From IMG/VR virus record IMGVR_UViG_3300032053_012030, positions 1-26,624 of that record: DNA of 26,624 nt; one strand, written 5' to 3'. Positions 1-12,141 of the stretch are shown piece after piece. Each line of letters starts with the position of its first letter. Position 1 is the stretch's first letter. A program made the position numbers and the translations under genes. Under the pieces are notes generated by a model. That model made no database searches. It worked only from the letters and a program-made list of their open reading frames with translations, and was not told where the DNA came from. The DNA comes from a virus.

Positions 1-472
1 ATTTGAACTGTCGGAGCATGTCACTAGGAGACAGATAGTTGGGCTCGGGGTATGACGGATCGAAATGCAATAATTGTTTCAGACGACAGTCTGCTGGTCC
101 TTCTTCTTCTGTTTTCGCGCATTCCACGCACCCGACGATCAACTTCTGAGGGCGCAGGCAAGAGTAATAACACTCGTGCATATTAACGTGGTCGATCTTG
201 CCGTCTGACCCGATGCTCCAAATATTTTCGTCTTTTTGTGCTCGGTCCAACCAGTCGAAAGCCTCTATCGGCAACTTCGGAGTTACGATGAGATTACCGT
301 AGTGGGTGGTAAACGCCAAGACCGGTAAATCTCCGAATACTTCCTTGAACTTTGGATCTTTGACTACTTCTTCAATCTTGAAGTCGTTTTCGCCGTTTTC
401 GAACACCAGCGTAGGCCTTCCACTCGATCTCTCGCCCGTTGTCAGGGCATACGTAAAGTACTTATTTTCCAT
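1..472 (-). CDS. Hypothetical protein, 3' end beyond window
   Basis: An open frame starts at ATG 472-470 and stays open to the left edge, giving 157 residues without a stop; the C-terminus is outside the window. It begins MENKYFTYALTTGERSSGRP. Its start overlaps the last 11 bases of the reverse transcriptase gene, so translation is probably coupled and it is the fourth gene of the minus-strand operon. A weak GGAAG lies just upstream of the ATG. The visible part is acidic and hydrophilic, with no membrane segment or signal peptide. It has a cysteine-rich stretch (CYYSC, then CVEC, then a further Cys) that could bind zinc. I do not recognise the family. Because it directly follows the reverse transcriptase, it could be an accessory factor, but nothing in the residues proves that. 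Confidence 0.75.
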   Translation of the reverse strand, partial: MENKYFTYALTTGERSSGRPTLVFENGENDFKIEEVVKDPKFKEVFGDLPVLAFTTHYGNLIVTPKLPIEAFDWLDRAQKDENIWSIGSDGKIDHVNMHECYYSCLRPQKLIVGCVECAKTEEEGPADCRLKQLLHFDPSYPEPNYLSPSDMLRQFK

Positions 473-1568
473 GCTTCCAAATTTCGATCGCCGGTCGTAA
501 AACATCCATTAACTTCTCGCCGTGCGCCGGATGTATCTGTCCGATGTAATTAACATTTCCCTGAACCCACGACCGGAACGCCTCCGGCGTTTTTCCGGAT
601 TTTTCGGCCTCTACTTCTAGCCCATACATCAAGCAATTGTGTACGACGCCCCGGAACTTTAGGTACTTCGCTTGGTCGACGTTAGGTTTCTGGTTCATTA
701 CTAGTCCTAGAAGTCGTTTCGCATGATACCTGAAGGTTCCTCTTGTCTTCGCCTTGTTTACGCGGTAGCCGCCAGCGCGCACTATCTTCGTAATGTCGCC
801 GATAAACTCTTCTTGCTCTTCCTGTGTTAGCGTCTTTCCACATGTGAACGACAAGTCATCAGAGTAACGCGTGTAGCGCCAGGAATATTCTCCCGACAGG
901 TTCATTGTTCTGTCAAGATTACCCAAGAATTGTCTTATCGGCCAGTCGAGGCGTTGATCCGCTACCAGGTTGCAAATCGCCCCCGAAGTCGGAGCTCCCT
1001 GCGGGACGATATTTTTGTCCCCGACCTTTACGGTGATCAACGACGCCATCAACCCGGCAACGTAGTGACTATACCCCAATCCCTTGAAGTAATTTCTGAT
1101 CCAACTTCGGAGCGTACTGCCGAAGAAGTTTTCCAGGTCCATGTGGACATACGTGCCGAGTCGGGGGCACGTATGTTCTGGTGCCGCGCCTTTTGCGGCT
1201 TCGCAAACGTCACATTTCGGGATATGCTGTTCGACAGCATCTCGTGTCGAACAGCCTTCCCGATAAGCCGTTACATGGTCGCCCAACAATTCCTGTAACG
1301 GGGTCAGAAACTTGTTCAGGAACTGTTGCAGCATCAACTTGAACAAGGGCGTTGGGGCATGGATAAGTCGTTTGCCCCCGCTCTTCTTTTTGATCGAAAG
1401 TACGCGGTACATTTCCTGTTTCTTGTGTATTGCGTACCAAACGATCTTGTTACGAAAGCCAAGGTGAAAAGCCAGAGAACAGTCGTCGACGGCGTAGGGC
1501 AAATAGAGAGGAATTTCCTGCGGGAGTTCTATTATGTCCAACGTCGTCGACGAAAAACCAATACTCAT
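462..1568 (-). CDS. Retron-type reverse transcriptase
   Basis: A 368-residue RNA-directed DNA polymerase. The fingers/palm motifs are clear: a basic KKKSGGKRLIHAP segment at about 60-72, the first catalytic Asp in MDLENFF (D144), VPQGAPTSGAICN at about 188-200 (the PQGxPTS motif of retron and group II intron enzymes), and the catalytic YSDD box at 235-238 followed by LSF. The later segment RVNKAKTR and LLGLVMNQK match retron motifs 6-7, though the usual VTG is LLG here. Between motif 0 and motif 1 there is a small Cys insertion (C119, C122, C134 with a nearby His) that looks like a zinc knuckle. No maturase, endonuclease or integrase domain is present, so it is not a mobile intron or retrotransposon enzyme. 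It overlaps its upstream neighbour by 4 bases (ATGA), which leaves no room for a retron msr-msd gene directly upstream. I see no template/variable repeat pair of a diversity-generating retroelement. The function in this phage is unknown. Confidence 0.9.
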   Translation of the reverse strand: MSIGFSSTTLDIIELPQEIPLYLPYAVDDCSLAFHLGFRNKIVWYAIHKKQEMYRVLSIKKKSGGKRLIHAPTPLFKLMLQQFLNKFLTPLQELLGDHVTAYREGCSTRDAVEQHIPKCDVCEAAKGAAPEHTCPRLGTYVHMDLENFFGSTLRSWIRNYFKGLGYSHYVAGLMASLITVKVGDKNIVPQGAPTSGAICNLVADQRLDWPIRQFLGNLDRTMNLSGEYSWRYTRYSDDLSFTCGKTLTQEEQEEFIGDITKIVRAGGYRVNKAKTRGTFRYHAKRLLGLVMNQKPNVDQAKYLKFRGVVHNCLMYGLEVEAEKSGKTPEAFRSWVQGNVNYIGQIHPAHGEKLMDVLRPAIEIWKHGK

Positions 1569-2188
1569 CGTCGTGGTTCCTCTGTTGCGTGTGAAATTTC
1601 ATGAAAGTACGCATCTGCCGGTAGGATTGTTTCGGCGTTTTTCGAACACATGCCTTTACCGGGCGAGCACTTGTTGTCGTGAAAGTCGAGAATTCGAGTG
1701 CAGACGGCGCAGAAGAGAGGAATCTCCTTGTACGGTGTGTGCAACGATATCCTCGGCATGCGCGCTTTTGCGTTGCTCGCGGAGCTCCGTTGCAGCACTT
1801 TTGAGAATCGGTACATCAACACGGATTCTTCTTTCGCGGATTCTCGCTTATCTTCTTTCTTCCTTCCCTTTATATGCGTTGGAACGATGAGGAGCCATTC
1901 TTCTGGACAAACGACGCGGTCAGTCAACTCGTCGCCCTCTCTCTTCCCTTCGAGTTTCTTGTCGTCGCGGTCGACGGTGATCGTTCTTTCGTGGGTTACT
2001 TTCAGGAGTGTTAGCGCCGCTAGGAGATCGTTGTCGAGATCCATCTCGAAGAAGTAACGAAACATTCGAAACACTGTTGCACGAAGTTCCCGGGGAACTA
2101 AGTAAACCCGGTCGTAAGGGAAGTATTGGTACCCGGTGCCGCCCTTGATTTCCCGTTGCGCAATTTTCACACAGAGTATCTCGGTCAT
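1565..2188 (-). CDS. Hypothetical protein with C-terminal Cys cluster
   Basis: A 207-residue protein I cannot assign to a family. The N-terminal half (MTEILCVKIAQREIKGGTGY...) looks like a compact mixed alpha/beta domain, followed by a very charged linker rich in Lys, Glu, Arg and Asp at about 100-120. The C-terminal third holds four cysteines in the spacing C-x2-C-x10-C-x6-C, a plausible small zinc ribbon. It overlaps the upstream VWA gene by 4 bases (ATGA) and the downstream reverse transcriptase start by 4 bases (ATGA), so the three are almost certainly made from one transcript in a coupled way. That placement makes it a candidate partner of the reverse transcriptase, which is inference only. 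No membrane segment or signal peptide is visible. Confidence 0.75.
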   Translation of the reverse strand: MTEILCVKIAQREIKGGTGYQYFPYDRVYLVPRELRATVFRMFRYFFEMDLDNDLLAALTLLKVTHERTITVDRDDKKLEGKREGDELTDRVVCPEEWLLIVPTHIKGRKKEDKRESAKEESVLMYRFSKVLQRSSASNAKARMPRISLHTPYKEIPLFCAVCTRILDFHDNKCSPGKGMCSKNAETILPADAYFHEISHATEEPRR

Positions 2189-3741
2189 GCGATCTCCTGG
2201 ATTTTTACGACTCGGGGGTGCATCGCGTCATCTTCCTGTCCGCTCGGGGTGAGGCACCAAATTAACGGGAACGCGGGGAGCCACTCTGGAATGGGGCCGC
2301 CTTGGTCGGTGCTGACCGGGGCGTAACCGTCGGTAAAGAGAATTGCGAGGTCGATCTTGTTGAAGCGGGGTTGTGTCAATCGAACGGCGTCGGGAATCCA
2401 ATCTCCTTCTTCGTCCTTGTTGCACAGATATTTGAGGAACGGCGTAAAACTGGTTCCTCCGTAACCATACCGCGAACAACCGTGGGTCCGGTTCTCGTCC
2501 GCGTCATCGTCGCTGAGTTCTTTCTCGTACTGCAGCGCGGCGTCGAACATCAATAACCGCATGCTGATTCCCTTTTCTACTTTAATGATCCCCAGCAATT
2601 CTCTCACGAACATCCGGAATTCTTCGTCGCTGACGCTTCCCGACGTGTCTACTCCTACCGCGACGTTGAACGTGAAGTTCTTCTGGTATCCCGGGTACGG
2701 TTCGATTCCCTCGTCTTCTAAGTGGAACAGCGCAGTGTTCGGGTAGGCCGTGCTCTCGTCCAACTTTGCACTGATCGCCGATTTCGCCAAAGACCGGAAG
2801 AGCAGATGCCAGGGGACCGTAGGTTCTTCGAGTAGATTGTCGATGTAGCCTTGAAGTCCCGCCGGAATCGTTCCCCTGGTTTTTTCGCTCTGCTCGATCG
2901 CCGCCCTAACGATGGCTTTCCCCTCTTTGTGCGCCCGGTCCATGACGCGTTCGATCTCGGCTTCAGTCATATCGTCGAGAATATCCTGCCAATCGACGTC
3001 GCCCTTGAAGTTCTTGTTTAGAAGATCCTTGAACCACTGGGGGTAGCCTTCCAAGCTGGGGTCGGCCTGACCAGGCGTTTGTCCGTCCCCTTCTCCAGGT
3101 TTTGGTTCTCCGTTTTCTCCGAGCAGCGCCGCCTTCATCTTCTGTTTTACGTCTTTGCCTTCGACGTCGAAGCCGTGACTGATCAGGTCGCCCAGCAAGA
3201 GTGCGAAGTATTCCTCGAAACACTGCCCCACCGGATAATTTCGATCTTCGGGCCAGATGAGCTTTGTTTTATAGCTTTCCAGATTCATCTTGGAATCAGT
3301 CATTATCCCGCGAAGAGCAACGTCATTCACCGCCATGTCCGCCGCGATATTCATCACCGGATGCAGCCTCTTTGCTTTGACGGGATCACCGATATCGATG
3401 CGAATCTTCAACCCCCTTTCCAGGTGTTGGAGTACTAGATGCCCCGCCTCGTGAATAATGCATAAGATTTGAAATTGGGCTTCCTGTTCGACGAACCAGT
3501 CCCGATCCCACAAGAAGAGATACTTGCCATCACGAGTCAGCGTAACGCCGACAGTGCCCATTCCCGGGGCCGCCCGCCGGCCGCAACTGTTCAGGATGCG
3601 TCCATAGAAATTGTTGCCACCACGGGGGCTACAGGCCCACTGCAAGCAGGCGCTCAGGGCGTCATTCGGGTCGATACTCGGGGTTATATCCCTCCCCGTT
3701 GTAGTTGTGATCTCAGTTTTCGGTTCCGTCTGTGCTTCCAT
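2185..3741 (-). CDS. Metallopeptidase-like protein with VWA domain (DUF2201 type)
   Basis: A 518-residue protein with the layout of the DUF2201 family: an N-terminal zinc-metallopeptidase-like domain and a C-terminal von Willebrand factor A domain. The zinc motif HEAGH is at 97-101 within an amphipathic helix. The VWA metal-ion-dependent adhesion site is complete: DTSGS at 365-369, the GGT threonine at 430, and Asp in FTDGY at 471. A Pro/Gly-rich acidic linker at about 206-232 separates the domains. In this family the VWA protein normally works with a MoxR-type AAA+ ATPase to remodel or insert cofactors into a client. A MoxR ATPase is encoded nearby at 5562-6809. The start has an excellent ribosome binding site, GGAGG, 5 bases before the ATG. 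It is the first gene of the operon that leads to the reverse transcriptase. The client and actual proteolytic activity are unknown. Confidence 0.85.
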   Translation of the reverse strand: MEAQTEPKTEITTTTGRDITPSIDPNDALSACLQWACSPRGGNNFYGRILNSCGRRAAPGMGTVGVTLTRDGKYLFLWDRDWFVEQEAQFQILCIIHEAGHLVLQHLERGLKIRIDIGDPVKAKRLHPVMNIAADMAVNDVALRGIMTDSKMNLESYKTKLIWPEDRNYPVGQCFEEYFALLLGDLISHGFDVEGKDVKQKMKAALLGENGEPKPGEGDGQTPGQADPSLEGYPQWFKDLLNKNFKGDVDWQDILDDMTEAEIERVMDRAHKEGKAIVRAAIEQSEKTRGTIPAGLQGYIDNLLEEPTVPWHLLFRSLAKSAISAKLDESTAYPNTALFHLEDEGIEPYPGYQKNFTFNVAVGVDTSGSVSDEEFRMFVRELLGIIKVEKGISMRLLMFDAALQYEKELSDDDADENRTHGCSRYGYGGTSFTPFLKYLCNKDEEGDWIPDAVRLTQPRFNKIDLAILFTDGYAPVSTDQGGPIPEWLPAFPLIWCLTPSGQEDDAMHPRVVKIQEIA

Positions 3742-4815: not shown

Positions 4816-5565
4816 ATGCAAGATTCACTTGATCGGCTCACCGCCCTCGCACCGACCTGGCACAATTACCTCGTAAAGACATCTTCGCGAGAGTCGCAAG
4901 CTCGGGAGTTTCTACTGCACCCGGAAGACAAATCCGCCGTCGGGATTTATATGGCGTTTAGGAATATTTACGGTGTAGAGGCGCTAGACTGGGAAGCAGA
5001 GACAGTCTGGATAACACTCGATAAAGATGGCATTAACTTAACCGAAGAAGCTAGAAACAAACTGGAAGCAGTTCTGACTCTGCACAAAAATCCAGCGTTT
5101 TATTGGGACAACATTGTTTTTCAGCAAACCGTCAATGCCCTGAATGAGGAAATCTTCGATCCGGAGTGCCTTCAGGAGAATCATCCTGGTCACATGGCCT
5201 GGGCCGTTTATGAGGCCGGCGTGATTCGAGGTCTCGATCCCGACAAAACGGCGATTCCTGAATTCGACGAAGATGTGCAACAGTACATGGCCGTTTGCTT
5301 GAAGCGAGCAGGACATGTTTATCCTCCAGACCAGCTCAAAGTCGTAGCAGACAATCTAGAGACTATGTTGCCGCCCGAGAAAAAAGAATTTATTGCTGAA
5401 GTCAAGAAAAGTTGGGAACACGTAGATAAGAGGGCCCTCCAGAATAGGGTATTTCTGGAGGACCCCCTCGATGTCCAATTGGCACAGTTGGCTTCTTGTT
5501 ACCTCTATGTCCGTGAACGCGCCAACTCGATGGCAGGCGAAGTCATGACCCTCGAAAACGATTAA
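4816..5565 (+). CDS. Hypothetical protein
   Basis: A 249-residue protein beginning MQDSLDRLTALAPTWHNYLV. Its ATG follows the stop codon of the previous gene with no gap (TAA ATG), so it is coupled to it. The sequence is acidic, helical and soluble, with few cysteines and no recognisable catalytic motif. Residues near 120-145 contain HPGHMAWAVYEAGVIRGLD, a helical segment that could pack in an EF-hand-like or all-helical fold, but there is no clear calcium loop. Its stop codon overlaps the stop codon of the convergent AAA+ ATPase gene in the four bases TTAA at 5562-5565. A strong 13-position hairpin with one mismatch lies in its coding sequence at 5432-5465. I do not recognise the family. Confidence 0.75.
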   Translation: MQDSLDRLTALAPTWHNYLVKTSSRESQAREFLLHPEDKSAVGIYMAFRNIYGVEALDWEAETVWITLDKDGINLTEEARNKLEAVLTLHKNPAFYWDNIVFQQTVNALNEEIFDPECLQENHPGHMAWAVYEAGVIRGLDPDKTAIPEFDEDVQQYMAVCLKRAGHVYPPDQLKVVADNLETMLPPEKKEFIAEVKKSWEHVDKRALQNRVFLEDPLDVQLAQLASCYLYVRERANSMAGEVMTLEND

Positions 5566-6809
5566 GGTTCTTTCTTTCCCCCGTCCTTGATCTTCTCTTC
5601 GTACTTCCGATGTGACTGGTCGAATTTCAAGTGCAGCTCGGACCAGGAAGGGTGTTCCTGTAACTCACGCATGAGCGATTTGAGGTAATCGCCGGCATTG
5701 TTCTCTTTGGCAAGACGTTTCATCTGGGTCAACATGGCGTGCGCCATGTCGTCGCTGTGCGCTTCGACGAACTCGATGAAATTCAACGCGGCCTTCTTCA
5801 CCGGCGGCGTCGTGCTGAAGAGAATCTTCAGGACGTTGAGGTCGAGATCGGCGAGGATTTCCTGCATCGAATTTTCGATCAATCGTTTGATCGCCGGTTT
5901 CACTTTCTTGAAATCGGTGAGCACAACGGCGGGGTCGATTGTTGTCGAATTGTCCTTCACGTGCCGCACGAGCTCCGCGGTCATCGTCGTTCCGATCGAG
6001 GCCGAGTAACGGAGTAACGCCATGTCGCCGTAGAGCGGTTCCCCTACCGCTTCGAGTGCGTATGCGTCGGCGCTGAGAGTCTCTATCGCCGCGGGGCAGC
6101 AATAGAGCTTATTGTTGTTCTTGGCTCCCTCGTCGTAAATTGCAGTGGGCTTATGTGTATAGTACGAAAGAATATCCGGGTGACACGCTTTTCCCCGGCT
6201 GACGGTAGACGAATTCGGGCCGTGAAACCGCGGGCTTTTGGCGTGGTTCATCCAACCCTTGAAGTCGGCGTGCAGGTAGAGGAACTTGATGCGACGGCGC
6301 AAAGCGGCGTTGTTTTCGATGGTGGTAACGGCGTACTGCGCCGTTGCCGGGTTCATGGTTCCGAGAACGATCGATTCTTCCGGGAGTTTGTAGTTAAACA
6401 TTTGGCCGTCTTCGAGCATCGAGAAGAACATCGCGATCGCGTGCTGCAGCCCCTGGTTGAGCTCGTCGAAAAGAACGATCGCTCTTTCTCCGGGATTCGG
6501 GAATACTGACGGAACGACTATGTTGAAGTACCCGGGCAGCGCTTCTTTCGTGCTCGGAATTCCGGCGCCCATCAAGCCATAATGGGCAGTACGGATTGTA
6601 CAGATGCGCATGTCGTTGTCTTGCGCGATCTGTTCGATGATCTGAGTTTTCCCGATTCCGGATTCTCCTACGAGGACGAAGCATCCGCGCCGTTGTTTCA
6701 TTTTGATACTCAACTCGATCTGCGCCCTGGCTTCGGCGATCGACGCCCTCGGCATGTCGTGGAGCTCAGCGTAGTTGATCTTCTCTTTTTCTTTCTCTTC
6801 TCTCGCCAT
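5562..6809 (-). CDS. MoxR-type AAA+ ATPase
   Basis: A 415-residue AAA+ ATPase. Walker A GESGIGKT is at 48-55, Walker B IVLFDELN at 111-118, sensor 1 GTMNP at 150-154, and an arginine-rich segment ALRRRIKFLYL provides the likely Arg finger. The GYFN...VFPNPGERAIVLFDELNQ arrangement is typical of the MoxR group, which acts as a chaperone-like motor together with VWA-domain proteins. The VWA/metallopeptidase protein at 2185-3741 is the obvious candidate partner even though two plus-strand genes lie between them. A GGAGG lies about 8 bases before the ATG. It is transcribed divergently from the terminase gene across only 29 bases, and its stop overlaps that of the convergent upstream gene. The substrate in the phage cycle is unknown. 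Confidence 0.88.
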   Translation of the reverse strand: MAREEKEKEKINYAELHDMPRASIAEARAQIELSIKMKQRRGCFVLVGESGIGKTQIIEQIAQDNDMRICTIRTAHYGLMGAGIPSTKEALPGYFNIVVPSVFPNPGERAIVLFDELNQGLQHAIAMFFSMLEDGQMFNYKLPEESIVLGTMNPATAQYAVTTIENNAALRRRIKFLYLHADFKGWMNHAKSPRFHGPNSSTVSRGKACHPDILSYYTHKPTAIYDEGAKNNNKLYCCPAAIETLSADAYALEAVGEPLYGDMALLRYSASIGTTMTAELVRHVKDNSTTIDPAVVLTDFKKVKPAIKRLIENSMQEILADLDLNVLKILFSTTPPVKKAALNFIEFVEAHSDDMAHAMLTQMKRLAKENNAGDYLKSLMRELQEHPSWSELHLKFDQSHRKYEEKIKDGGKKEP

Positions 6810-6838: not shown

Positions 6839-8485
6839 ATGGGTGCTGCAGCTACACAACTCCCGATTGACGCGAGCCTCAGCGATTTTGCTGAGGCCTG
6901 GATTCTTTTGGACGGTAAACCCTTCCGACTCGACGACTGGCCGATGCATCGGGCATTCTACGATGGGCGCTTCAGGCGAACATTATTTAAGACAAGTCGT
7001 CAGGTAGCGAAGTCGACGACGTTGGCGAACTTCAGTATTATAGAGTGTGCTCTTATACCGCATTTTTCCACAATGTTTGTAAGCCCCTCAAAAGAACAGA
7101 CGACTCGATTTTCGACGACCCGCGTTGGGAAAGTCATGCGGTATTCGCCGATCATCAACAAGAGGTTCTTGCATCCTGACCTCTCTGACCGTGTTTTTCA
7201 TAAACAGTTTACTAATGGTTCTGAAATGCTCTTCACGTACGGGTGCGATGCGATCGACGGCGCTGATCGTTTACGTGGTCCATCGGCAGATCGCGTTTTA
7301 TACGACGAAGTGCAAGAAATGTTATACGACCCGGTGATCGTTGTAGGCAACGAGACTCTTTCTGAGTCCGATTACGCCTACGAGACTTATGCTGGGACTC
7401 CGAAGAGCATGGAGAACACAATCCAATATCTTTGGGAACTCAGTACTCAGTCTGAGTGGGTGATTAAGTGCGAGGCGTGCAATACGTATCAGTACATCGA
7501 CTCGGAAAAATCTCTGGGAAAACACGGACCCGTTTGTGTTAAGTGTGGGAAATACATCGATCCATTTTTGGGACAGTGGATCGACATGTCGCCGTTGGAC
7601 CTGATTAAGGGCGAGACCATAGAACAAAAACTCAAAGGTTTTCACATCAGTCAATTAATGATGCCGCGTAATTGCCCGCTCTCGATGCGGAATTACCGGG
7701 ATGCTGAGTTAGAGGAAAAAGCACGGTTACGTTGGGACCGTATTCTTGTGAAGCATCGTGAAGCGCCGACGTCGCTTTTTAAGAATGAGGTTCTAGGCGT
7801 TTCCGACACAATTGGAACTCGCATGATCTCTCTCGACGAACTTCGTAGTCTCTGTACGGGGCCTGCTCTCACTGAAGTCCCTACCCAGGCTACTTTCCGC
7901 GGGACCGCGCAGGTAATAGCGGGAGTCGACTGGTCCGGCGGGGGAACTAGTGGCCTTTCTCGCACGGTCCTATGGATTTGGGGTTATCGCCCGAGCGATC
8001 AGAAACTCGTTTGCCTGTTTTACAAAGTCTACCCCGGGACAAATCCTGTCCATGTCGTCGAAGAAATCGGACGCATCTGCAAAAATTACCGCGTATCGAT
8101 GACTATCGGCGACGCCGGCGAAGGGGCGTTAGCTAACGACCTCCTCCGGAAGTTTCTCGGCGGGGTTAATGTTTCGCAAGTTCAATACGGCTCGCAGTCC
8201 AAAGCACTGACGTTTAATGGAGTAGACAGGTACTTAGCAGATAGGACGACACTCATCGATAACTACTTCATGCTTCTTAAAGAAAAGAAGATAGAGTTTG
8301 GGCCAGTAGAACAGATGGAAACGGCGATCGACGATATTCTCAACGAGTATGAAGAAGTCACCCAGTCAGGAAAAAAAGTGTGGAGACACTCGCCGCAGAA
8401 GCCGGACGATTGTCTCCACGCTGGACTCTTCGGATGGATTGCCTGGAAGGTTATCCAGAACGACTTCAGATTCTATCAACAGTAA
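6839..8485 (+). CDS. terL: Terminase large subunit
   Basis: A 548-residue packaging motor that pumps DNA through the portal and cuts concatemers. The N-terminal ATPase has a deviant Walker A, TSRQVAKST at 52-60, a Walker B VLYDE at 153-157, and coupling motif AGTP near 185-188. A four-Cys zinc ribbon (C211, C214, C233, C236) sits between ATPase and nuclease. The RNase H-like nuclease has acidic residues in GVDWSGG (D364), IGDAGEG (D425) and PDDCLH (D522/D523). No Shine-Dalgarno is visible; TACTAT at 6826-6831 would place a transcript start at or next to the ATG, so a leaderless mRNA is possible. The gene is followed by the long structured non-coding region and, unusually, is about 16 kb from the portal gene. 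Confidence 0.93.
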   Translation: MGAAATQLPIDASLSDFAEAWILLDGKPFRLDDWPMHRAFYDGRFRRTLFKTSRQVAKSTTLANFSIIECALIPHFSTMFVSPSKEQTTRFSTTRVGKVMRYSPIINKRFLHPDLSDRVFHKQFTNGSEMLFTYGCDAIDGADRLRGPSADRVLYDEVQEMLYDPVIVVGNETLSESDYAYETYAGTPKSMENTIQYLWELSTQSEWVIKCEACNTYQYIDSEKSLGKHGPVCVKCGKYIDPFLGQWIDMSPLDLIKGETIEQKLKGFHISQLMMPRNCPLSMRNYRDAELEEKARLRWDRILVKHREAPTSLFKNEVLGVSDTIGTRMISLDELRSLCTGPALTEVPTQATFRGTAQVIAGVDWSGGGTSGLSRTVLWIWGYRPSDQKLVCLFYKVYPGTNPVHVVEEIGRICKNYRVSMTIGDAGEGALANDLLRKFLGGVNVSQVQYGSQSKALTFNGVDRYLADRTTLIDNYFMLLKEKKIEFGPVEQMETAIDDILNEYEEVTQSGKKVWRHSPQKPDDCLHAGLFGWIAWKVIQNDFRFYQQ

Positions 8486-8499
8486 TTTTGCGCTGCTTT

Positions 8500-8619
8500 G
8501 ATCCACTGGGTGATCTGATCTTTTCCGAGGAGCGCGTGGAGCTTTGTGACTCGAAGTCCTCGCGCGTGTCACAACGCTCCCGCAGCGACGAGCGAAAGAT
8601 CAGATCGGCCAGGAGGGTC
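8500..8619 (+). other. Domain 1 of the structured RNA, with pseudoknot
   Basis: A closing helix pairs 8506-8523 with 8595-8612 over 18 positions with one G-G mismatch and one U-G pair. An outer helix pairs 8500-8504 with 8615-8619. Inside, 8538-8550 pairs with 8568-8580 over 13 positions with one mismatch. The loop of that hairpin (TCCTCG, 8557-8562) is complementary to CGAGGA at 8526-8531, giving an H-type pseudoknot. A 3-base helix 8581-8583/8592-8594 fills the remaining gap. All helices are seen directly; the pseudoknot is inferred from complementarity. Confidence 0.7.
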
Positions 8620-8666
8620 CCAAAAGACTAGAGATATGGAAGTAGTTTTGTTTCGGGTTCTTTCTT

Positions 8667-8705
8667 GCGAAGTTAACTTCGCGCACATGTTTCCCTTTAA
8701 CATGT
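8667..8705 (+). other. Two adjacent small hairpins in the structured RNA
   Basis: The first is a perfect 16-base palindrome (8667-8682), GCGAAG and CTTCGC around TTAA. The second pairs ACATGTT (8685-8691) with AACATGT (8699-8705) around a 7-base loop. They sit between domain 1 and the first extended hairpin. Confidence 0.65.
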
Positions 8706-8740
8706 ATCCAGCGCAAGGTCAGTGTTGCTTGAATTCTCGT

Positions 8741-8823
8741 CCAAGAGCGCCAAAGCGGTCCGGGCGAATGTTTCTTGTCCAAACGATTGAAACTTTTGCC
8801 CGGAAACGCGTGGCTGGCCTTGG
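8741..8823 (+). other. First extended hairpin of the structured RNA
   Basis: The core helix pairs 8760-8774 with 8789-8803 over 15 positions with one mismatch and one G-U pair, around a 14-base loop. Three further helices stack below it across small internal loops: 8755-8757/8807-8809, 8749-8752/8811-8814 and 8741-8745/8819-8823. It contains one copy of the recurring GGCGAAT word (8763-8769). Confidence 0.65.
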
Positions 8824-8849
8824 AGGACATTCCGTTCTCTTAACGTTCG

Positions 8850-8899
8850 ACCGATTCGTTGCCGAGTTACTCGGCGTTCGCTGTTGAGGCGAATCCAAC
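8850..8899 (+). repeat. 3' two-hairpin module, copy A
   Basis: The block starts ACCGATT, then a perfect hairpin GCCGAG-TTA-CTCGGC (8861-8875), then a hairpin TTCGC/GCGAA (8877-8881/8889-8893) and ends GGCGAATCCAAC. The same block, with the same order and loop TTA, recurs at 9086-9133. Confidence 0.8.
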
Positions 8900-8920
8900 A
8901 CTGAGACAATGACGTTGCTA

Positions 8921-9049
8921 TCATTTTGTGTCCATGAGCTGGTGTACTCGAGCAGAAGGCGAATGAGAGTTGTGTTAGGAACTCTCCGGTTCCTAACACA
9001 ACGGTTAGACAGTTTCTGCTCGAGTTCTCCAGCGCATGGCCAGAAATGA
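8921..9049 (+). other. Second, very long hairpin of the structured RNA
   Basis: Four stacked helices: a perfect 14-base apical stem 8969-8982/8989-9002 with a 6-base loop, a perfect 12-base stem 8946-8957/9014-9025, a 14-position stem 8929-8942/9029-9042 with two mismatches, and a basal 6-base stem 8921-8926/9044-9049. It carries another GGCGAAT word at 8958-8964. A separate hairpin, CGCGGC/GCCGCG, follows at 9050-9070. Confidence 0.8.
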
Positions 9050-9085
9050 CGCGGCGGATCAGAAGCCGCGCAACCCTCGATAAGA

Positions 9086-9133
9086 ACCGATTTTGCCAAG
9101 TTACTTGGCGTTCGCGATTTCGGCGAATCCAAC
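9086..9133 (+). repeat. 3' two-hairpin module, copy B
   Basis: This matches copy A: ACCGATT, hairpin GCCAAG-TTA-CTTGGC (9095-9109), hairpin TTCGC/GCGAA (9111-9115/9123-9127) and the end GGCGAATCCAAC. Compared with copy A, one G-C pair of the first stem has become A-T on both sides, so the pairing is kept. It ends 5 bases before the stop codon of the polymerase gene on the other strand. Confidence 0.8.
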
Positions 9134-9138
9134 GTCGT

Positions 9139-12100
9139 TTAGTTTTCTTCGATCTCTTCGAAATCCTGTTTTATCGCATGCTCTAAGTAATCGTCCATAT
9201 TGTGCCGCAGTGGTTGGTTGTATTCTTTGAGGAAGTTATCAACCGACATTTGCTCGCCGTACGACGGTCCTACGGTAACGTCCCACTTAAACGGCACGGG
9301 AAGCCAGGGGTATTTCTGCGCTATCTTCTTTACCCCGTATTCTTCGATAAAATCAGGCATCAGGTGCACGTGCTTCTTGGGGAGCTCGAAGACGAGCGAG
9401 TCGTGCACGGTTATCAACAGCCGGCCTCCCATGTCCCGGATGGGTTTGTCGACGTCACAGAGGACGTCCAGAACTATCTCCGAACTGTTGCTTTGTATCT
9501 TAAAGTTGACCGCCTGGCGCATCGCCTTATTAGCCAACTTCGGTGGCAGGCCGTTTAGATCGAGCCTTCTCCGGCGCCCAGCGAAAGTTTCGACCATTCC
9601 CATGAATCTGAGCTGGTCCTGAGTTCGTTGAATATACTCGGGGATAGTCGGAAACATTTTAAACAGCGTGTCGATGATCGCCTGGGCCTGGTCTTTCGGA
9701 AGTCCTACGATTTCCCCGACCTTGTAGCTCGATGCACCGTAGAGAATTCCGAACACCATGCGCTTCATGTTCTTGCGCAATTTTTCGAGGCGCTTACCGT
9801 AAGCGGGATCGGAACCGGGATTCTCCTTCGTCCCGACGAGACGCGAAGCGTTCTCGAAATCGGCGTAACTCCAATCGTGTTCCGTGTCGATTCCAACGAG
9901 TGCTAGGCGGTCTTGGCACTCATGCTGTTTGACTCCTGCGAGGATCGTCGCGGGGTTGTACACCATGCCGGAGAAGAACGAGTGCGGGTCCATACCGTTG
10001 TTAAGCGCCGTTATTAGCGCTTTATCCCCGCTATACGCCGCGTACAGCCGTACCTCTGCAGCTTTGGCGTCGTCGTTGACGATAACCATGTTCTCACGGT
10101 CAGACGGGATGAACATCTTTTTGATATTGTGAATGCCGATCGCCAGGGGGATATTTTGCAGATTTTCGCCAGAACTGCTGGTGCGGCCCGTACTCGTGCC
10201 ATTTATGTGAAACGTCGTATGCATGCGCCCGTCTTCGCGACTCAGCACTCGAATGTTTTCCACGAACGTGTTGCGGGCCTTGATGATTGCTCGGTACTCG
10301 AGCAGGACCCCGGAGAAGACACAGTCGTGCTGGGTCTTCAGGCTGCGAAGGAACAAGGCGTTCGTACTGATGTCGCCGCCTTTGGTCTTTATCGGTTCGA
10401 CGATACCCTGATAGCAGATGACCTTTCCTGTTTCCGGGTGTCGGTACCCCGTCCCAAACAACACTTTGCGAAGTTGGTGCGCGCTGTTGGGATTGAACGG
10501 AGTTTTAAATGCGCCGGGGGGAATCATTGTGTGAATCTCGGCCTTGTAGTGGATGATCGAACGGTCCATCTCAATTGCAAGGTCGTTGATATACGCCGTA
10601 TCGACGGGAACGCCGTAAAGCTCCATGTCTGCTAGAACTCTAGTAACGGGAACCGTCCTCGTTACCATGAGCTCTTTCAACGGGTTTGCGGCGTTGGTCA
10701 TCGGCTTTAGGAGTTCACGGAAATGTCGATTTGTCCCTAATGCTTTGCGTTTGCGCGCGAGCTCCTGATCTTCTCTGTCGATCTTCTCTCGTTGTTTGAA
10801 GTACAACTGTCTGGTGACGTCGGCGTCGATCGCGCCGTAAAGATTGAGCTCGGCAAGAGGAATGTCGATAAACCCGGTGTCCTTAGCTAAGCGTTGCTCC
10901 GCCTTAGAAAGCTTTTCCTCGGTTTCTTTTTTTAGCGCGACTCCTTGGCTCTCGCTCTCGTTTTTCGCCAACGTATCGTGCAACTGGTCTTCGTATCCCG
11001 CGTAATGCGGCAACACCAACTTGGTCATCGACTTCAAGCCATAAAAACCCTTCTTGTCTTCTGAGAGCAGGTGTTCTCCGAGCATCGTATCCCACAGGAA
11101 CCTCCGGACTCTCCAGCCTTTTCTTGCGAGAACTTTCAGATCGAATTTTGCGTTGTGGAAAATCTTAGGCTTCGGAGAATTGAGAAGTTGCATTATTGAC
11201 GGATAAACCTGTTCCAACGTCCACGGAGTCTCAGGATGTTCTAGCGGGATTGACGCGGCCTTTCCGACGTCCCAAGCCACTACCAGACTTAGAATTTTTA
11301 ACTTTTGGCGGTGTGGGAACAGCGTATTGGTCTCTGTGTCAATCGAGATGACGTGGTTGTCTGGGTTTTTCCCGCCGGTAGAATAGTCGACAATCATGTC
11401 TACTAGTTTTCGTACCTCGGTGATGTTCTTCGGAAACACGTAATCCTTTGTAAGTGTTTCTATCGGAATCTTCGACGCTATCGTTTCCCCACGATTTCGG
11501 CGTTTCACCGCCTCCAGGAAGAGTAGTATGTGCTGCTGAAGAACTTCGTAGTAGCCCGTCTTCGCGAGGAGCTGTCGCTTTGACATCGACGGAAACACCA
11601 GAACTTTTTTGCCCCAAGCCGTTGTCTCTACAAACTGACCCTGGACGTCCGCGTATTTCCCGAATTTTATGTTGAGCGCCTGAAGGACTGCGGGTCCTAA
11701 CGCGAAGATCATGATTGGGTCTTCGGTCTTCTTGTGATTTACTTTAATGTCCTCGAAGAAGAACCGCTTACACGCGGTTAACATCGATCGGACCGGTTTC
11801 TCGTGCATACACCGGATTGCGTAGGTGTACCTGCCTTCGAGATTCTTGAGTTCGCTATTCTTGCTCTTGGCGCCTGTAAACGCCATTTTGATTACGCGTT
11901 CAATATCGTGTTTCCAAGAGTCGTGTGCGGTAGTATTGGAAGACACGCTGGGAATAAACGGCGATTCAGCAATGCAGAAGTAATCTGCGTTGTCTGAGCC
12001 GATTCCCTCTACATAATGCTGTCTCTGAAAGAGCGGGCAGGAGGGGCATTCGGCCCCCCTCCATGCCCGGTTCTCGCAGAGAGTGCACTTTAGTAATTCG

Positions 12101-12141
12101 TTATCCGGCGTTTGTGTCGTCTGGGGGTCCTGGTCGGGCAT
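9139..12141 (-). CDS. Family A DNA polymerase with degenerate uracil-DNA-glycosylase-like N-terminus
   Basis: A 1000-residue replicative polymerase. Residues 19-210 resemble family 4 uracil-DNA glycosylases, a fusion known from phage SPO1 polymerase: cysteines C19, C22, C111 and C124 fit Fe-S ligands, with extra C32 and C35. The GEAPG-like motif is AESPF and the HPS-like motif is SMSK, so the catalytic His is missing and glycosylase activity is doubtful. The 3'-5' exonuclease is intact: D268/E270 in SIDTET, D334 in HNAKFDLK, Y435/D439 in YGAID. Polymerase motif A is DAKAAEVR (D691), motif B KRMVFGILYG (K793, F797, Y801) and motif C VHDSL (H913, D914). Its start overlaps the primase gene by 41 bases, and only a distant GGAG is present. 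It is the last gene of the replication operon and converges on the structured RNA region. Confidence 0.93.
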   Translation of the reverse strand: MPDQDPQTTQTPDNELLKCTLCENRAWRGAECPSCPLFQRQHYVEGIGSDNADYFCIAESPFIPSVSSNTTAHDSWKHDIERVIKMAFTGAKSKNSELKNLEGRYTYAIRCMHEKPVRSMLTACKRFFFEDIKVNHKKTEDPIMIFALGPAVLQALNIKFGKYADVQGQFVETTAWGKKVLVFPSMSKRQLLAKTGYYEVLQQHILLFLEAVKRRNRGETIASKIPIETLTKDYVFPKNITEVRKLVDMIVDYSTGGKNPDNHVISIDTETNTLFPHRQKLKILSLVVAWDVGKAASIPLEHPETPWTLEQVYPSIMQLLNSPKPKIFHNAKFDLKVLARKGWRVRRFLWDTMLGEHLLSEDKKGFYGLKSMTKLVLPHYAGYEDQLHDTLAKNESESQGVALKKETEEKLSKAEQRLAKDTGFIDIPLAELNLYGAIDADVTRQLYFKQREKIDREDQELARKRKALGTNRHFRELLKPMTNAANPLKELMVTRTVPVTRVLADMELYGVPVDTAYINDLAIEMDRSIIHYKAEIHTMIPPGAFKTPFNPNSAHQLRKVLFGTGYRHPETGKVICYQGIVEPIKTKGGDISTNALFLRSLKTQHDCVFSGVLLEYRAIIKARNTFVENIRVLSREDGRMHTTFHINGTSTGRTSSSGENLQNIPLAIGIHNIKKMFIPSDRENMVIVNDDAKAAEVRLYAAYSGDKALITALNNGMDPHSFFSGMVYNPATILAGVKQHECQDRLALVGIDTEHDWSYADFENASRLVGTKENPGSDPAYGKRLEKLRKNMKRMVFGILYGASSYKVGEIVGLPKDQAQAIIDTLFKMFPTIPEYIQRTQDQLRFMGMVETFAGRRRRLDLNGLPPKLANKAMRQAVNFKIQSNSSEIVLDVLCDVDKPIRDMGGRLLITVHDSLVFELPKKHVHLMPDFIEEYGVKKIAQKYPWLPVPFKWDVTVGPSYGEQMSVDNFLKEYNQPLRHNMDDYLEHAIKQDFEEIEEN

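Follow-up and report, generated by a model that had tools for sequence, protein, structure and literature searches.

The window, by which we mean the whole stretch of DNA analysed, is a 26.6-kb fragment (26,624 nucleotides) of an uncultured phage (IMG/VR record IMGVR_UViG_3300032053_012030). Relatives were found via its terminase and polymerase. Among named phages there is no near relative, the reverse transcriptase being at most 29% and the terminase at most 31% identical. Besides a sigma factor and a ParB-like protein, the window encodes the following genes:

462-1568, minus strand: retron-type reverse transcriptase (RT) with intact YSDD, the proposed trans-acting partner of the units described below
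1565-2188, minus strand: gene overlapping the start of the RT gene, without family match, possibly an accessory protein
2185-3741, packaging-gene flank: VWA/metallopeptidase-like protein
5562-6809, packaging-gene flank: AAA ATPase
6839-8485, plus strand: terminase large subunit (TerL)
9139-12141, minus strand: family A DNA polymerase

The VWA/metallopeptidase-like protein and the AAA ATPase are kept in 24 related records. One contig (L285, QMZE01000001.1), filed under an Archaeoglobales genome (Guaymas), coincides in its coordinates with virus record G003 of this lineage; since relatives in the lineage encode a bacterial-type sigma factor, it has possibly been misbinned as archaeal.

terL and the polymerase gene are convergent, and between them lies a non-coding gap of about 650 bases (8485 to 9139). 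A sequence-only reading of the window had described some 640 densely paired bases at this place, with no protein gene and with stems that are not terminators, and on all three points our analysis agrees. The minimum free energy of 8486-9138 is -294.5 kcal/mol on the plus strand, compared to -212.9 +/- 8.8 for shuffled sequences (z -9.3; 0 of 20 shuffles as good), and -260.8 kcal/mol on the minus strand (z -8.6). The gap holds inverted repeats of 58 nt at 78% and of 48 nt at 71% complementarity together with shorter ones, and a 41-nt stretch recurs as a direct repeat with 85% identity (8859-8899 and 9093-9133). It reveals no credible open reading frame. Behind the main stems no T-tract terminator is found, the sole terminator-like match being at the level of shuffles, and a search for tRNA and tmRNA gave none. 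Rfam covariance models, those of ROOL and GOLLD included, gave no match at the gathering threshold in the whole window and none at E <= 10 in 8400-9250.

The same reading had taken the gap for one large structured RNA and placed it near ROOL and GOLLD. A non-coding structured RNA locus is supported, but not a single RNA, as a module is repeated threefold; the idea of a single ornate RNA was dropped because of this repeated unit plan. Neither is the placement supported: no Rfam family is matched, the locus is built of modules whose number ranges from 0 to about 10 among relatives, and the units show retron ncRNA anatomy in phages that carry a retron-type RT.

Tandem units in the window and in related phages

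The gap is made up of three tandem units of a common plan (9139-8908, 8904-8719 and 8719-8485). Read on the minus strand, each unit consists of a segment a1, an invariant G directly after it, a small hairpin, a triloop hairpin (stem of 6-8 bp, triloop G-NWA-C), a long variable hairpin, the letters AG and a segment a2 which pairs with a1. Their parts are, all on the minus strand:

8908-9139: unit 1, on the polymerase side; a1 9139-9130, G 9129, a2 8917-8908
9128-9110: unit 1, small hairpin (P4)
9109-9095: unit 1, triloop hairpin (P3), GCCAAG-UAA-CUUGGC
9094-8918: unit 1, variable hairpin region (msd-like), AG at its end
8719-8904: unit 2; a1 8904-8896, G 8895, a2 8727-8719
8894-8876: unit 2, small hairpin (P4)
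8875-8861: unit 2, triloop hairpin (P3), GCCGAG-UAA-CUCGGC
8860-8728: unit 2, msd-like region
8485-8719: unit 3; a1 8719-8709, G 8708, a2 8495-8485, touching the end of terL
extending to 8683: unit 3, P4
8682-8667: unit 3, P3 with a 4-nt loop, GCGAAG-UUAA-CUUCGC
8666-8496: unit 3, msd-like region

The a1/a2 closing stems measure 9-11 bp in the window and 7-15 bp in relatives. Unit 3 was found by its closing stem of 11 bp, its divergent loop being missed by the strict descriptor.

In relatives the slot between TerL and polymerase measures 0 to about 1150 bases and is made of repeated units, from 0 to about 10 in number. Phages without units in this gap have units elsewhere in the genome, and some genomes carry second arrays (four units in G015, 64222-64810; three units in G008, 132041-132464). 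A descriptor of the form a1-GA..triloop hairpin..AG-a2 gave 37 matches in 2.47 Mb of related genomes, compared to 4.5 in Markov-shuffled sequence. When the letters of loop and junctions were left free, only the G/G junction (G after a1, G before a2) was strongly enriched, with 46 matches versus 8 in shuffled sequence; the commonest loops of this free search were UAA and UUA, followed by AGA, CUA and AUA. An unrestricted search for closing stems, with the loop limits removed, yielded mostly noise.

The curated units (n = 45) measure 110-232 nt, with triloop hairpin stems of 6-8 bp. The triloop hairpin covaries: six of seven pairs stay paired through two-sided changes in 14 sequences, mostly polymerase-adjacent units, a set that is not fully independent because most of the 14 came via the descriptor, which demands pairing. 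A second triloop hairpin, C-UUC-G on the strand of the retron reading (in the cDNA sense, C-GAA-G), is present 11 times in G015, G008 and the gap arrays where 0.1 would be expected, and its complement never occurs. In locus L001 a lone unit (6582-6746) has a T-run behind it on the plus strand and may also serve as the terminator of terL.

Some relatives depart from the one-to-one arrangement. In L069 (record G037) nine copies of AGCAGT(A/G)CC, a motif not present on the other strand, come after a single a1-G-msr part, and the eight stretches between successive copies are differing hairpin-forming sequences of 51-130 nt. The same layout with three or four copies is found in L014, L015, L022 and L025. 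Every copy is able to pair with the single a1. The msd-like regions fold into structure (median z -2.1) yet match neither one another nor the rest of their own genome, and no template copied from elsewhere in the genome was found. Alignment of the variable hairpin between units is not possible.

The reverse transcriptase and its association with the units

By sequence and predicted fold the RT belongs to the retron clade. It matches PADLOC retron types with E 3e-47, and among PDB sequences, where all matches are retrons, Ec86 with 2e-13; of the NCBIfam models the retron models St85/Ec67 match, with scores under the curated cut-offs. Its AlphaFold model (pLDDT 92) finds retron RTs at each of Foldseek ranks 1-17 in the PDB. 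The catalytic motif is YSDD in the window, and YxDD is invariant in an alignment of 21 sequences. At the position of NAxxH in retron region X the window RT has, by eye, DAVEQH, and in region Y it has LLG in place of VTG. Most RTs of the lineage (window 462-1568, L123-L146) carry, ahead of the catalytic domain, a zinc-ribbon-like insertion with CxxC and HxCP, which the more distant RTs L147, L150 and L152 lack.

Full examination of 25 related records showed the RT in 20; of all 50 records 30 have it, and many of the rest are fragments. The gene order RT, VWA protein, AAA ATPase and terminase is conserved, and the gene at 1565-2188 is kept beside the RT in 14 related records.

Units are present in nearly all RT-positive relatives, sometimes at other genome sites. 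Three relatives without any RT (348 kb) have no unit, although the frequency in the other records would predict about seven; the equally distant but RT-positive G040 and G048 (TerL 43-49%) have three units each. G005, an RT-positive fragment, has no unit by the descriptor. In the window the units lie about 7 kb from the RT gene. The non-coding gaps up to about 1.5 kb from the RT gene held no triloop hairpin in any of 30 loci, and since most loci have no non-coding gap beside this gene at all, the RNA of the RT must lie elsewhere. Beside bacterial relatives of the RT (at most 31% identical) no convincing unit was found.

Strand, mechanism and competing explanations

Most likely, the units are read on the minus strand. 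Of the 12 loci whose two flanking genes share one direction, 11 agree with this reading (9 of 10 once five doubtful matches are set aside), and in the terminase-polymerase gap of the records examined it always continues from the polymerase. The motif GGTAWAA, which resembles a -10 element, precedes a1 by no more than 30 nt in 7 of 45 units and is found at the mirrored place on the opposite strand in none of 45; in several gap loci it lies 5-14 nt before a1, as if a1 were the start of transcription. Before the first a1 of the window, which directly follows the polymerase stop codon, no such promoter-like motif was seen, and the strand of the window is thus taken from its relatives. The plus-strand polarity proposed from the window alone, on which also our first descriptor was based, was set aside on account of the position of the invariant G, the direction of the flanking genes and the promoter-like motifs; transcription from the plus strand is probably wrong. 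Its support had been the wobble pairs, and these do not inform on the strand: the window has one G-T and no A-C, all loci together have 12 G-T versus 7 A-C (p = 0.36), and the stems of the retron reading 11 GU versus 6 AC. The plus strand folds lower in energy in 20 of 28 loci as oriented.

Retrons are known from bacteria as defences against phages, in which one enzyme goes with a single RNA encoded next to it. The retron ncRNA has the order a1, branch G, msr, msd and a2, and the G next to a1 primes by its 2'-OH. Bacterial retrons (Ec86/Eco1, Ec67/Eco2, Ec73, Eco8) resemble the phage system in the retron-type RT, by sequence and fold, and in the order of the ncRNA (a1, G, msr with a triloop hairpin, structured msd, a2). 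They differ in that the phage units lie kilobases from the RT gene and belong to other transcription units, a genome having several of them, often tandemly arranged; that some phage relatives have a single msr with many msd-a2 cassettes behind it; that the phage system has no recognised effector; that its RT is a near-core gene of the phage lineage; and that it has LLG for VTG. As the enzyme clade, a1/a2, G and triloop hairpin are found and the RNA is not adjacent to the enzyme, we regard the system as a variant of retrons rather than a confirmed member. Separation of this kind has a precedent in Retron-Nex1 (Ne160) of Nannocystis exedens, in which duplicated msr-msd repeats have no RT within a kilobase (PMC6868368). 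Those are repeats on a myxobacterial chromosome, whereas here unrelated variable hairpins share a unit plan in phages that keep their RT.

Several computed results together make it probable that the gap is a phage-encoded, trans-acting, multi-unit retron-like system with three ncRNA units on the minus strand: the structure and its modular anatomy, the invariant G and the triloops, the covarying triloop hairpin, unit numbers that differ between relatives, and the link of the units to the RT. Against the retron reading count the usually lower energy of the plus strand, the distance of the units from the RT gene, LLG for VTG, the sub-cut-off NCBIfam scores, the bacterial relatives without an adjacent unit, the unitless G005 and the window's first a1 without promoter-like motif.

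In the proposed mechanism the array would be transcribed on the minus strand, following the gene for the DNA polymerase, and each transcript would be closed by pairing of a1 with a2, with the invariant G placed at the base of the resulting stem. The subsequent steps (RT binding, priming at this G and synthesis of cDNA) we infer from Ec86, whose RT binds an msr stem of 8 bp capped by a UUU triloop (PMC6868368). The RT, encoded about 7 kb away, would recognise the conserved triloop hairpin, prime DNA synthesis at or near the invariant G and use the neighbouring long hairpin (msd) as template for a short hairpin DNA. The DNAs would differ from unit to unit, and one a1/msr part with several hairpin-a2 cassettes would offer alternative templates. 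The units and their association with the RT suggest that small DNA molecules (msDNA) are made from RNA by the phages themselves. Tentatively, we extend this to a multiplex retron: one phage RT may serve many ncRNA units in trans, and a single a1-G-msr part may choose its a2 partner among as many as about nine copies, so that different template hairpins would yield a repertoire of hairpin DNAs during infection. For such a panel, a role as decoys or in counter-defence against host immunity is conceivable, somewhat short of an even chance, and is the weakest inference made here; it fits the fast turnover and the unrelatedness of the hairpins. The main alternatives are roles in phage replication or gene regulation, which fit the conserved place of the RT.

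Among explanations without a retron, a large RNA acting alone is the least unlikely, though improbable. Such an RNA would be a scaffold or multimer like ROOL or GOLLD, transcribed from the plus strand with terL, and the RT would be unrelated. ROOL and GOLLD are likewise large, highly structured, phage-associated ncRNAs of several hundred bases, the gap is within the size range of such RNAs, and its strong folding, mostly better on the plus strand, fits; but no covariance model matches it, its short modular units vary in number from 0 to about 10 with some standing alone elsewhere, and neither their tie to the RT nor the gene and promoter context of the minus strand is in keeping with it. Still less probable is that two convergent transcripts have structured ends here, with terminators or RNA-stabilising hairpins that were multiplied by duplication. 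The convergent position of terL and polymerase and the closing stem with T-run on the plus strand in L001 would agree with this; the window units, however, have no T-tract, units also occur between co-directional genes, and termination needs no invariant G, triloops or link to an RT. A palindromic element acting at the DNA level (packaging, origin or recombination site) is very improbable, for despite near-perfect Watson-Crick stems with few wobbles and a locus adjoining terL, several relatives carry no array beside terL and have units elsewhere, and the units are consistently oriented relative to the flanking genes and to a promoter-like motif.

If the retron reading is true, phages would themselves use retron chemistry, with an RT near the packaging genes that is fed by a changing set of RNA units. 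The naturally separated enzyme and template and the arrays of one primer with many templates would be of interest for retron-based DNA-writing tools. No earlier report of such phage arrays was found in the literature searched, which holds few of the subscription journals. In a distant phage (L411, 1603-2597), whose enzyme is 32% identical, at least three units lie upstream of the RT gene and co-directional with it, a layout nearer to the classical retron arrangement.
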